Shown here one piece after another: positions 42,132-46,516 of a stretch of 64,000 nucleotides of DNA. This DNA is from Glycomyces sp. TRM65418 (GTDB lineage: Bacteria; Actinomycetota; Actinomycetes; Mycobacteriales; Micromonosporaceae): the NCBI RefSeq assembly GCF_019710475.1, contig NZ_JAJFAX010000001.1, forward strand, positions 248,001 to 312,000. Reading direction: 5' to 3'. The position numbers and the translations under genes were made by a program. The notes beneath the pieces are model-generated. The model was not told the origin of the DNA. It did not search any database and worked only from the letters and a program-made list of their open reading frames with translations. Each line of letters starts with the position of its first letter. Within the stretch, counting starts at the first letter, position 1.

Positions 42132-42163
42132 TTGACCTTGGACCCGGCTCCAAGGTTTACGGT
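42132..42163 (+). promoter_or_regulatory. MerR-type operator/promoter
   Basis: -35 TTGACC (42132-42137) and -10 TACGGT (42158-42163) are 20 bases apart, the over-long spacer characteristic of MerR-controlled promoters. Between them lies a perfect dyad ACCTTGG (42135-42141) / CCAAGGT (42150-42156). The transcription start should fall at the merR start codon. Confidence 0.8.
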
Positions 42164-42169
42164 CGTTCC

Positions 42170-42637
42170 ATGACCGCCGCAACCGCCGCCCTCACCGTCG
42201 GGAAGCTCGCCGAGCAGATCGGCGTGACCCCCGACGCCATCCGCTACTGGGAGCGCGAGGGCCTGTTCCCCGCTCCGGAGCGCAGCCCTTCCGGGTACCG
42301 CCGGTACGGGGCCGACGCGCTCGACCGGGCCCGGTTCATCCGGGCCTGCCAGCGCGCGGGGCTGCGCTTGTCCGACATCGCGGACCTGCTCTCGGTGCGG
42401 GACACGGGCACGTGCCCGTGCGAGCCGGCCGAGACGCATCTGGAGCGGCGGATCGCGGAGGTCACGGCCGAGATCGCGCGCCTGGAGGGACTGCGGTCCC
42501 AGTTGACGGCGATGCTCGGGGCGGTCGAGGCGGGGACGTGCGACCCGCCGCTGCCCGAGAACTGGTGCCCCCCGACGGACCCGCCCGTGGACCGCGGATC
42601 CGCTCGATCCGTGCCCGGAGGAGGTGAATGCGAATGA
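42170..42637 (+). CDS. MerR-family metal-responsive transcriptional regulator
   Basis: 155 residues. Winged helix-turn-helix at about 9-75 (LTVGKLAEQIGVTPDAIRY, then SGYRRYG), then a long dimerisation helix. Cys82 in TGTCPC aligns with the cysteine that marks divalent-metal sensors such as ZntR and MerR. The C-terminal metal loop is Cys124-x8-Cys133. Zn, Cd, Pb or Hg is therefore more likely than Cu(I), as an inference. ATG at 42170 begins directly at the predicted transcription start. The final GGGECE residues are coded by the Shine-Dalgarno of the next gene, whose ATG overlaps this stop codon. It probably controls its own promoter. Confidence 0.9.
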   Translation: MTAATAALTVGKLAEQIGVTPDAIRYWEREGLFPAPERSPSGYRRYGADALDRARFIRACQRAGLRLSDIADLLSVRDTGTCPCEPAETHLERRIAEVTAEIARLEGLRSQLTAMLGAVEAGTCDPPLPENWCPPTDPPVDRGSARSVPGGGECE

Positions 42638-42726
42638 ACGTGTCCGAGGAATGCTGCACCTGCTGCGACGACGCCGCCTGCGACTGCGGCGGCCAGGAAT
42701 GCTGCCACGGCTGCTGCGAGAAGTAG
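42634..42726 (+). CDS. Cysteine-rich 30-residue metallothionein-like peptide
   Basis: 30 residues with ten cysteines: Cys7, 8, 10, 11, 16, 18, 23, 24, 27, 28, arranged CC-x-CC, C-x-C, CC, CC, plus His25 and many Asp/Glu. This density is that of a metal-thiolate cluster protein. It does not match the SmtA/BmtA pattern or mycobacterial MymT as recalled, and it is too short for common ORF calling. A perfect AGGAGGTG lies at 42619-42626, seven bases from the ATG. The ATG overlaps the merR stop (ATGA), so translation is coupled. A 19-bp hairpin follows. It probably sequesters the metal sensed by the MerR protein. Confidence 0.8.
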   Translation: MNVSEECCTCCDDAACDCGGQECCHGCCEK

Positions 42727-42740
42727 CCCGTGCGGTATGA

Positions 42741-42780
42741 GCGCCCGCCGCCGTCCCCGTTCGGGGACGGCGGCGGGCGC
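42741..42780. terminator. Terminator of the merR-metallothionein operon
   Basis: Perfect inverted repeat: 42741-42759 (GCGCCCGCCGCCGTCCCCG) pairs with 42762-42780 with only TT between, giving an 18-bp stem and a four-base loop. It begins 15 bases after the peptide stop. Confidence 0.92.
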
Positions 42781-42843
42781 GTTTCGGCGATTCTGCGCAA
42801 ATCGGGCGCGCGGAGGCGCCCCCGACACAAGGGTGCCCGGCCG

Positions 42844-42915
42844 GTCCGACAGTCCGGGCGGGACGAAGGCAGGCGCGCGACCGAGCCGCAGACGAGCAAG
42901 ACTCGACTGTCGGAC
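42844..42915. repeat. Spaced inverted repeat in the merR / quinone oxidoreductase gap
   Basis: GTCCGACAGTC (42844-42854) is repeated inverted as GACTGTCGGAC (42905-42915) with a 50-base interval. The flanking CCGGCCG/CGGCCGG extend the symmetry imperfectly. The surrounding 200 bases hold no supportable gene. It may be a 3' structure of the leftward oxidoreductase mRNA. Confidence 0.6.
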
Positions 42916-45161: not shown

Positions 45162-46310
45162 TCACGCGCCGCGGAAGGGACCGGTGACCTCGAAGGTCAT
45201 CCCGGCCCAGCTGGAGCCGGACGTGCCGCGCTGGGAGGAGAAGTAGAGGCGGTCCCCGGCGGGGCTCAGCGCCGGGCCGGTGATCTCGGAGGCGCCGTGC
45301 CCGACCAGCCGCAGGAACGGGGCCACGACGTCCTCGGGGGTGATCACGCAGATCTCCATGTTGCCGCCGTCCTCGGCGACGAACAGGTCTCCGCTGGCGG
45401 GGCTGCCGGTGATGTTGTCGACGCCCGACAGCGGCGGGTTCGACGTCAGGTTGTCGTCGTAGGCGAGGACGAGGGTGTTCGCGGCGGTGTCGTAGGCCCA
45501 GACCCGGTTGTCGCCCTTGGTGGTGAAGAAGCAGACGCCGTCGGCGTAGTAGCAGCCCTCGCCGCCGTTGAAGCGCTTGGTGTTCGCGACCTGGTGGCGG
45601 GTGGCCGTCGGCGAGCCGTCCGGGTCGGGCACGGTCTTCCAGGCGAGGGTCCCGCCGGACTCGGTGAGGACCTCGAGGCGGCCCGAGCCCAGGTTGCCCC
45701 ACGTGGTGGGCACGAAGCGGTAGAAGGCCCCGTCGGAGACGTCCTCGGTGAGGTAGACGACTCTCCGGTCGGGGTCGCAGGCGGCGGCCTCGTGCTTGAA
45801 GCGGCCCATCGCGGGCCGCTGCACGGCCGCGCGCTCGCCGAAGGGGTCGGTCTCGTAGACGTAGCCGCGGTCGACCTCCTCGCAGGAGAGCCAGGTGTGC
45901 CACGGCGTGGCGCCGCCCGCGCAGTTGGTGCGGGTGCCGTTGAGGATCCGGTAGGCGTCGACGATGGTGCCGGAGGCGTCGAATCGGAGCGCGCCGGCCC
46001 CGCCGCCGGTGGAGAGCTCGGCGTTGGAGACGTAGATCCAGCCGTTCCCGTCGGCGAAGCAGGCGCCGCCGTCGGGGGCGCCGTGCCACGTGTAGGAGGT
46101 GCCGGGGACGGTGCGGGAGGAGCGGGCCACCACGCGGGAGGTGAAGCCCTGGGGGAGCATGACGCCGTTGGCGTCGGCGGAGCGGAGGGAACCGTAGGGG
46201 CTCGGGCCGGTCTGGGCCGGGGCCGCGAACGAGGGGCGGGTCATGGTGAAGCCGAAGGCGACCGATCCGGTGCCGACGGCGGCGGCTCGCAGGACGTGGC
46301 GTCGTTGCAT
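45162..46310 (-). CDS. PhoX-family (DUF839) phosphatase-like protein with Tat signal
   Basis: 382 residues. The twin-arginine signal MQRRHVLRAAAVG...SFAAPA predicts Tat export. The body is a beta-propeller of the PhoX type, with TYTWHGAPDGGACF-like and NGTRTNCAGGATPWHTWLSCEE segments; the latter is the family's hallmark (of which NCAGGATPWHTWLSCEE is the core). FKHEAAACDP and DVSDGAFYRFVP follow. Such enzymes are Ca/Fe-dependent alkaline phosphatases, though many members are untested. ATG at 46310 has AAAGGA upstream; the 28 codons before it would destroy the Tat signal. Confidence 0.88.
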   Translation of the reverse strand: MQRRHVLRAAAVGTGSVAFGFTMTRPSFAAPAQTGPSPYGSLRSADANGVMLPQGFTSRVVARSSRTVPGTSYTWHGAPDGGACFADGNGWIYVSNAELSTGGGAGALRFDASGTIVDAYRILNGTRTNCAGGATPWHTWLSCEEVDRGYVYETDPFGERAAVQRPAMGRFKHEAAACDPDRRVVYLTEDVSDGAFYRFVPTTWGNLGSGRLEVLTESGGTLAWKTVPDPDGSPTATRHQVANTKRFNGGEGCYYADGVCFFTTKGDNRVWAYDTAANTLVLAYDDNLTSNPPLSGVDNITGSPASGDLFVAEDGGNMEICVITPEDVVAPFLRLVGHGASEITGPALSPAGDRLYFSSQRGTSGSSWAGMTFEVTGPFRGA

Positions 46311-46516
46311 GGGGGGAGTTCCTTTGCGGACGAACTGGTGCAAGCTATCGCTGCTGCCCAATACGGTAGGGAATCCGGCGGGGCGCTGAGCCAATGCGAC
46401 GCGTCGGGTCGGTGATGAATCGGCGGACGGGAGGTGAACGTCCCTCTCTCGATCCCGCCGGCGCGGCCGCGGGGTCCGATTAGACTCGAACGCGCACCTC
46501 CACAGGAAGGCGGACC

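Follow-up and report, generated by a model that had tools for sequence, protein, structure and literature searches.

A MerR-type regulator gene coupled to a cysteine-rich micropeptide gene in Actinomycetota, a candidate minimal metal-resistance cassette

What is the role of a 30-residue peptide with ten cysteines that is encoded directly behind a merR gene in Glycomyces? The question was raised by a stretch of 64,000 nucleotides of Glycomyces sp. TRM65418 (hereafter the window, meaning the whole stretch analyzed), in which a sequence-only reading had proposed an autoregulated operon and a probable new type of bacterial metallothionein. We confirmed that positions 42132-42780 form one self-contained unit, made of a MerR-type promoter/operator, merR, a coupled peptide gene and a hairpin. 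The promoter/operator (42132..42163, + strand) combines a -35 TTGACC (42132-42137, +) and a -10 TACGGT (42158-42163, +) with a 20-bp spacer carrying a dyad (42135-42156, 11-nt arms, 91% complementary), and it ends 6 nt 5' of the merR ATG. The promoter scan of the window, which was limited to spacers of 16-18 nt, returned nothing. The merR gene (42170..42637, +; ATG 42170, TGA 42635-42637) is predicted to be leaderless and encodes a putative metal-responsive regulator of 155 aa. Inside its 3' end lies the perfect Shine-Dalgarno (SD) sequence AGGAGGTGA (42619..42627, +) of the peptide gene (42634..42726, +; ATG 42634, TAG 42724-42726), whose product MNVSEECCTCCDDAACDCGGQECCHGCCEK contains the ten cysteines and one histidine, and whose start overlaps the merR stop as ATGA. 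All these parts agreed with the sequence-only reading. The 18-bp terminator that it had also announced was recovered as a perfect hairpin of 18 bp with a 4-nt loop (42741..42780, +; MFE z-score of -5.2 versus shuffles), but a T-run was absent and the terminator scan of the window gave zero, and we consider it a probable terminator without U-tract.

The unit is flanked on its 5' side by a divergent threonyl-tRNA-synthetase-type gene and on its 3' side by a convergent gene of the zinc-type alcohol dehydrogenase/quinone oxidoreductase-like type. A search of the window against Rfam gave no match at the gathering score. A PhoX-type alkaline phosphatase domain protein is encoded nearby (45165-46394, -), and positions 42780-42860 are a copy of a dispersed intergenic repeat, with matches at E up to 0.001 in the genome itself (G000, two including this copy), G007 (5), G002 (4) and G012 (16); in all four genomes searched, one match was located no more than about 300 bp away from the merR-peptide unit.

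To place the regulator, MerR loci were gathered by protein searches among relatives, in the order, in the class, in named genome contigs and in plasmids (5 of 410 matching plasmid records were examined), complemented by one DNA motif search. With a threshold of E 1e-12 and after removal of identical MerRs, the set comprised 101 proteins. A clade of 78 members, 77 with CPCE or CPCG plus L107 with CACE, was delimited from 21 other MerRs; L063 (broken merR) and L064 (partial merR), each of which has a Cys-rich ORF, were dropped from the count. The clade bears the signature RDTGxCPCEP and occurs in Actinomycetota. To count as a peptide, an ORF had to encode 10-60 aa with no fewer than 5 Cys and a Cys share of 20% or more, and to start between -45 and +160 nt from the merR stop. 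A separate Cys-rich micropeptide directly 3' of merR was thus found for 68 of the 78 distinct clade members, 67 by the rule itself and L068 added on account of a 19-aa, 6-Cys peptide obtained when the start beside the SD is taken. None of the 21 other MerRs had a qualifying ORF, even when the requirement was lowered to 4 Cys. The total rises to 70/78 if one counts L065, in which the peptide is fused in frame to the MerR C-terminus with internal SD and ATGs retained (a fusion noted for L065 and L142, G210), and L120, in which the peptide is present but merR, in another frame, reads past it.

A chance origin of these ORFs was rejected. As a control, 985 stops of long ORFs at the same loci yielded 20 matches; 17 of them were the family peptides themselves seen via overlapping frames, and the remaining three came down to one unrelated ORF in L034. 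The peptide of the window is moreover the sole ORF on the two strands of the 64 kb to satisfy the same limits on length (10-60 aa) and Cys content (5 Cys and 20% Cys or more), which together with the invariance of its ten cysteines across the 12 Glycomyces species that carry the long form indicates more than chance. In a tree of 97 MerRs (77 clade members and 20 others; L030 was too short to be included), built from few columns and with 34 forks left open, the clade obtained a support of 100/100. Peptide presence was spread through the clade tree, requiring 5 changes versus a mean of 24.8 after shuffling.

The exceptions were of several kinds. In L030, one of the 68, merR has an early stop and the peptide is intact. 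In L015, the peptide is cut after its sixth Cys and the frame runs on, with merR and operator intact; it is found in one species (L015 = L043), and apparently corresponds to a recent loss. In both L015 (G007) and L043 (Glycomyces lechevalierae), the frame past the sixth Cys continues into sequence resembling the intergenic repeat. L119 is a second copy in G797, without recognizable operator or peptide. L035, L122, L123 and L124 form a CPCG subclade that likewise shows neither, so that a regulator of this clade can exist without the peptide; a crude gene finder pointed to no clear output gene in their surroundings.

The peptides themselves are 11-30 aa long with 5-10 Cys. The commonest form, with 6 Cys, accounts for 33 of the 68; the others have 5 (7 peptides), 7 (11), 8 (3), 9 (2) or 10 Cys (12). 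Without the first Met, their composition is 36% Cys, 24% Asp plus Glu and 9% Gly, and they are poor in aromatics and histidine (W+Y+F about 1.3%, His 0.9%). In these respects they fit the broad functional notion of metallothioneins as small, very Cys-rich proteins with few aromatics or His. We counted 43 different Cys spacings, for instance MRGCCGCGCDCGC, MTCPCCEGPCDCC, MNDCCEDPTCPPESCGCGCDC, MRYDECGCGCGCGCGCG and MDECCTCCECC, the last one being the shortest form with 11 residues. The 10-Cys form was confined to Glycomyces in the set examined, where it represents 12 of 17 peptides, beside four forms of 15-18 aa with 5-6 Cys and one shortened form. The coding signal of the peptide in Glycomyces is one of purifying selection; pairwise averages over 26 codons of the 12 long forms were 0.46 for dS and 0.11 for dN, a ratio of about 0.23. 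The fixed property of the peptides is thus their thiol content and not their sequence. The cysteine pattern, whose conservation the sequence-only reading had proposed to check, is itself variable, and what is kept is the Cys richness, together with the SD and the operator.

The distribution of the cassette is patchy. The genomes with strong matches to the clade, peptide-less members counted, numbered 17 out of 22 for Glycomyces (E below 1e-60), 43 out of 397 sampled for the order (E below 1e-40) and, the own genome being counted as well, 6 out of 394 for the class. By hand tally, 25 genus labels occur among peptide-bearing loci, one of them being represented by the fusion, and named records of Micrococcus, Citricoccus and Rhodococcus are peptide-bearing in addition. 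The same merR with a 19-aa peptide is present on the Rhodococcus plasmids pGA1 and pGS01, with recombinase genes adjoining. At the scale of the phylum, a strict 29-base DNA motif matched 3 of 396 genomes, the own one included, indicating that this is not a universal gene. Among viral contigs, no relative was found in 16 pattern stretches. The checks by which the sequence-only reading could have been overturned from sequence, i.e., loss of the operon in relatives, of the Cys richness or of the open frames, were all run and all spoke for it: the merR-peptide arrangement persists under the 25 genus labels and most peptide frames are intact. That reading is therefore supported, and its scope is wider than proposed.

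A TTGA-dyad promoter faces merR at all 68 peptide-bearing loci. Scored against the sequence of one member, it reached 20-32 of 32, versus 16-20 for the best of 20 shuffles per locus, and the dyad showed 6-11 of 11 symmetric pairs. Both hexamers followed the strict pattern TTG-N22/23-TANNNT at 63 of the 68 loci; in L059, L061, L083, L084 and L085 the -35 and the dyad are kept and the -10 has diverged. The promoter ends 6 or 7 nt 5' of the first in-frame merR start in 62/68, which is why merR is predicted to be leaderless. The SD of the peptide would then be the first SD on the mRNA, and more peptide than sensor would probably be made. This SD, at or over the merR end, is a perfect match of 7-9 nt for 63 of the 68 peptides; the core-to-start spacing equals 9 nt for 42 peptides and falls within 8-10 nt for 55.

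The dyads of L025 and L062 are identical to the ZntR site ACTCTGGAGTCGACTCCAGAGT at 16 of 22 positions and that of the window at 15 of 22 (hand count); the available part of PMC1526738 places the ZntR site within a 20-bp spacer. The outer half-site ACCTT matches the CueR signal given in the same portion of that paper (PMC1526738). A wider regulon was sought and rejected. The own site was the sole such operator in 6 of 8 Glycomyces genomes, G004 and G015 having one extra site each, and ten other genomes gave a single extra one, in G823; all three lie beside another MerR gene. These adjoining genes, L139 (G823), L140 (G004) and L141 (G015), fall outside the clade, and the similarity of their operators makes cross-talk between MerR paralogues possible.

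The MerR of the window matched Pfam PF13411 (MerR_1), PF00376 (MerR) and PF09278 (MerR-DNA-bind), all above the gathering score. It remained below every NCBIfam equivalog cut-off of the named subfamilies MerR (83.3 bits vs 150.85), ZntR (75.7 vs 167.95), CadR-PbrR (74.6 vs 151.45) and CueR (63.2 vs 147.4), and the SoxR and NmlR models also matched below cut-off. Its cysteines are at positions 60, 82, 84, 124, 133 and 154. Cys82, Cys84 and Cys124 are invariant in the 20 aligned clade MerRs; Cys133 is replaced by Leu in five of these 20 and in L068 of Rhodococcus, all of which keep the peptide, so that the sensor site is not uniform. The aligned clade MerRs have at least two of the three putative ligand cysteines (Cys84 and Cys124 in 20/20). 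Cys84 aligned with one Cys of Tn501 MerR and of CadR, which we take to lie near the start of the dimerization helix, and Cys124 and Cys133 are spaced by nine residues, a spacing also present in MerR, ZntR and PbrR. Tn501 MerR was the best PDB sequence match. An AlphaFold model of the monomer (mean pLDDT 82.7, pTM 0.55) retrieved CadR with zinc and DNA as the first fold match and HiNmlR, a MerR protein without metal-sensor domain, as the second; CueR, PbrR691 and Tn501 MerR were among the 50 fold matches listed.

Two plasmid members, L070 (pGD22-1) and L071 (pFRL4), were nested among peptide-bearing members in the tree. Neither has a peptide that qualifies by the ORF rule, and here the same operator is directed at a divergent P-type ATPase gene. 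Both ATPases scored above the NCBIfam heavy-metal and cadmium-family (TIGR01512) cut-offs and also, narrowly, above the copper-family cut-off. The same kind of regulator can thus serve a pump or a peptide, and of the contextual arguments for a metal role this swap, with its two cases, is the strongest. No relative of the ATPase was seen beside peptide-bearing loci within flanks of 1.5-3 kb (8 kb for plasmids), some of them shortened where the contig stops; at L123, which has no peptide, a partial relative occurs at a distance of about 2 kb. In the two plasmid ATPases the membrane (channel) motif reads CSC, not CPC, and their short Cys-rich N-terminus resembles the micropeptides.

Divalent soft metals are favored by the location of the cysteines, a spacer of 20 bp, the fold match with CadR and the cadmium type of the ATPase. 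The description of the regulator as a divalent-metal-type MerR is retained as the favored assignment and no more than that. Copper is possible as well, in view of the ACCTT half-site, of ATPases narrowly above the copper cut-off and of a likeness of the peptides to fungal copper thioneins.

How does the cassette compare with known systems? Metallothioneins and metallohistins of actinobacteria were reportedly surveyed in silico by Schmidt et al. in 2010. Phytochelatins, (gamma-Glu-Cys)n-Gly, are very short, acidic, Cys-repeat chelators made by enzymes; the peptides described here share the short acidic Cys repeats but are gene-encoded. MymT, the mycobacterial copper metallothionein, is likewise actinobacterial, small and Cys-rich; it is longer than these peptides and is copper-controlled through RicR. 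The SmtA/BmtA systems resemble the cassette in that a small Cys-rich chelator adjoins a metal-sensing regulator, SmtB, which belongs to a family other than MerR. Here, by contrast, the regulator is MerR-type and co-directional instead of divergent and SmtB-type, and the peptides fall well below the SmtA/BmtA length, probably leaving too few residues for the SmtA fold. The proposed dissimilarity to SmtA/BmtA agrees with the regulator type and with Pfam searches, of low power at such length, that gave no match for the window peptide (E 1) nor for eight others of the 68 (E 10); a PDB sequence search with the peptide also gave none. The other type of regulator and the lack of Pfam matches suggest that the cassette, presumably metallothionein-like in function, lies outside the SmtA family.

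In the accessible portion of PMC7387436 (2020), SmtB is presented as a divergently transcribed zinc-dependent repressor, MymT is given a role in copper, and the bacterial metallothioneins of investigated function are few, namely two. The copper thioneins of Neurospora crassa and Agaricus bisporus, with 26 aa and 7 Cys, were once the shortest metallothioneins reported, according to PMC4755600; they too are very short and CxC-rich, but they are eukaryotic and share one Cys pattern, whereas 43 spacings occur here over 11-30 aa in a bacterial operon. The ZntR, CadR and PbrR units also have a MerR-family sensor and a similar palindrome, with the 20-bp spacer as for ZntR. Their output is usually an efflux pump, and zntR was not autoregulated in the genomes studied, as stated in the available text of PMC1526738; here, unlike in those units, the operator precedes merR itself and the peptide. 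Among the open-licence papers screened by title and opening of the abstract, none described a Cys micropeptide coupled to MerR; an earlier description elsewhere is possible.

Other roles of the peptide have to be weighed against sequestration. It might donate or buffer metal for its own sensor, acting as a metallochaperone or a device tuning MerR rather than as a bulk sequestrant. The natural in-frame fusion of L065 would fit such a role, as would the close coupling of the peptide to one MerR clade and the probable capacity of the 6-Cys forms, about two divalent ions. We nevertheless consider it unlikely: a strong SD behind a merR that is predicted to lack a leader points to an excess of peptide over MerR, free peptide may still arise from the fusion through its internal SD and ATGs, and a sequence that varies so widely is more in keeping with a chelator than with a specific docking partner. 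A defense against thiol oxidation or electrophiles, with MerR sensing the oxidant or electrophile and the peptide as a sacrificial store of thiols, is very unlikely. The SoxR and NmlR matches, HiNmlR in second rank and the quinone-oxidoreductase-like neighbor in the window are all compatible with it, but the operator is ZntR-like, the MerR cysteines coincide with metal-ligand positions or lie close to them, the output that takes the place of the peptide is a heavy-metal ATPase, and the best matches by PDB sequence and by fold are Tn501 MerR and CadR.

Two further readings concern translation. Polycysteine leaderless sORFs of mycobacteria were reportedly described by Canestrari et al. in 2020, and the present peptide, a short Cys-rich ORF followed by a hairpin, again in actinobacteria, could be taken for a similar leader peptide or Cys-codon attenuator. 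The mycobacterial sORFs are described as regulating the downstream gene in the accessible section of PMC9094748. A crude gene finder could call the next gene at 62 of the 68 loci; this predicted gene was on the same strand at 13 of them and on the opposite strand at the other 49, as in the window. The peptide gene is thus last in its unit at most loci and the polycysteine-sORF model does not fit; moreover, merR comes before the peptide, whose translation begins from a strong SD, and we give an attenuator hardly any credence. An extension of the MerR C-terminus through frameshifting or read-through appears just as improbable. It could draw on the fusion and on the 54 of 68 peptides that are in one frame relative to merR, but the others are divided between the two remaining frames (8 and 6), and this variable frame combined with the steady SD spacing points to conserved independent initiation, on which ground it was rejected as the general case.

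We therefore return to sequestration, and regard the merR-peptide unit as probably a minimal metal-induced operon that unites a sensor with a metallothionein-like sequestering peptide; the word metallothionein is used here for the presumed function of a candidate metal binder. MerR would be bound at its own promoter, the one with the 20-bp spacer. Once Cys84, Cys124 and Cys133 had taken up a thiophilic metal ion (the Zn, Cd, Pb or Hg class being most likely), MerR would remodel the promoter, inducing more of the presumably leaderless merR-peptide mRNA. Ribosomes re-initiating at the strong SD at the merR end would then produce the Cys- and Asp/Glu-rich micropeptide, presumably in excess over the sensor, and its thiolate clusters would chelate the metal. 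As the free metal falls, MerR would be reset to its repressing form, closing a feedback loop.

Beyond the single locus, we lean, with less assurance, towards an overlooked class of gene-encoded, phytochelatin-like micro-metallothioneins in Actinomycetota, down to 11 residues in length. Their sequence would be nearly free to drift, the number of thiols, the acidity and the dosage being all that counts, and they would be tied to one MerR clade as a cassette of roughly 0.6 kb that is plasmid-mobile and could be traded for an efflux pump with the operator unchanged. This candidate class would be far shorter than the known bacterial metallothioneins and linked to a MerR-type sensor. Its genes are probably below the usual annotation length; no gene was listed at the position of the Rhodococcus peptide in the gene tables, which are incomplete. 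Direct synthesis of peptides of 11-20 residues is feasible, so that one can test which metals they prefer and how small a thiolate cluster still works; the cassette also offers a ready-made part for biosensing or sequestration. In a survey of Frankia, merR genes related to metals were reported to lie apart from operons that encode resistance proteins (PMC4531530). The cassette could explain such orphan metal-type merR genes in actinobacteria.
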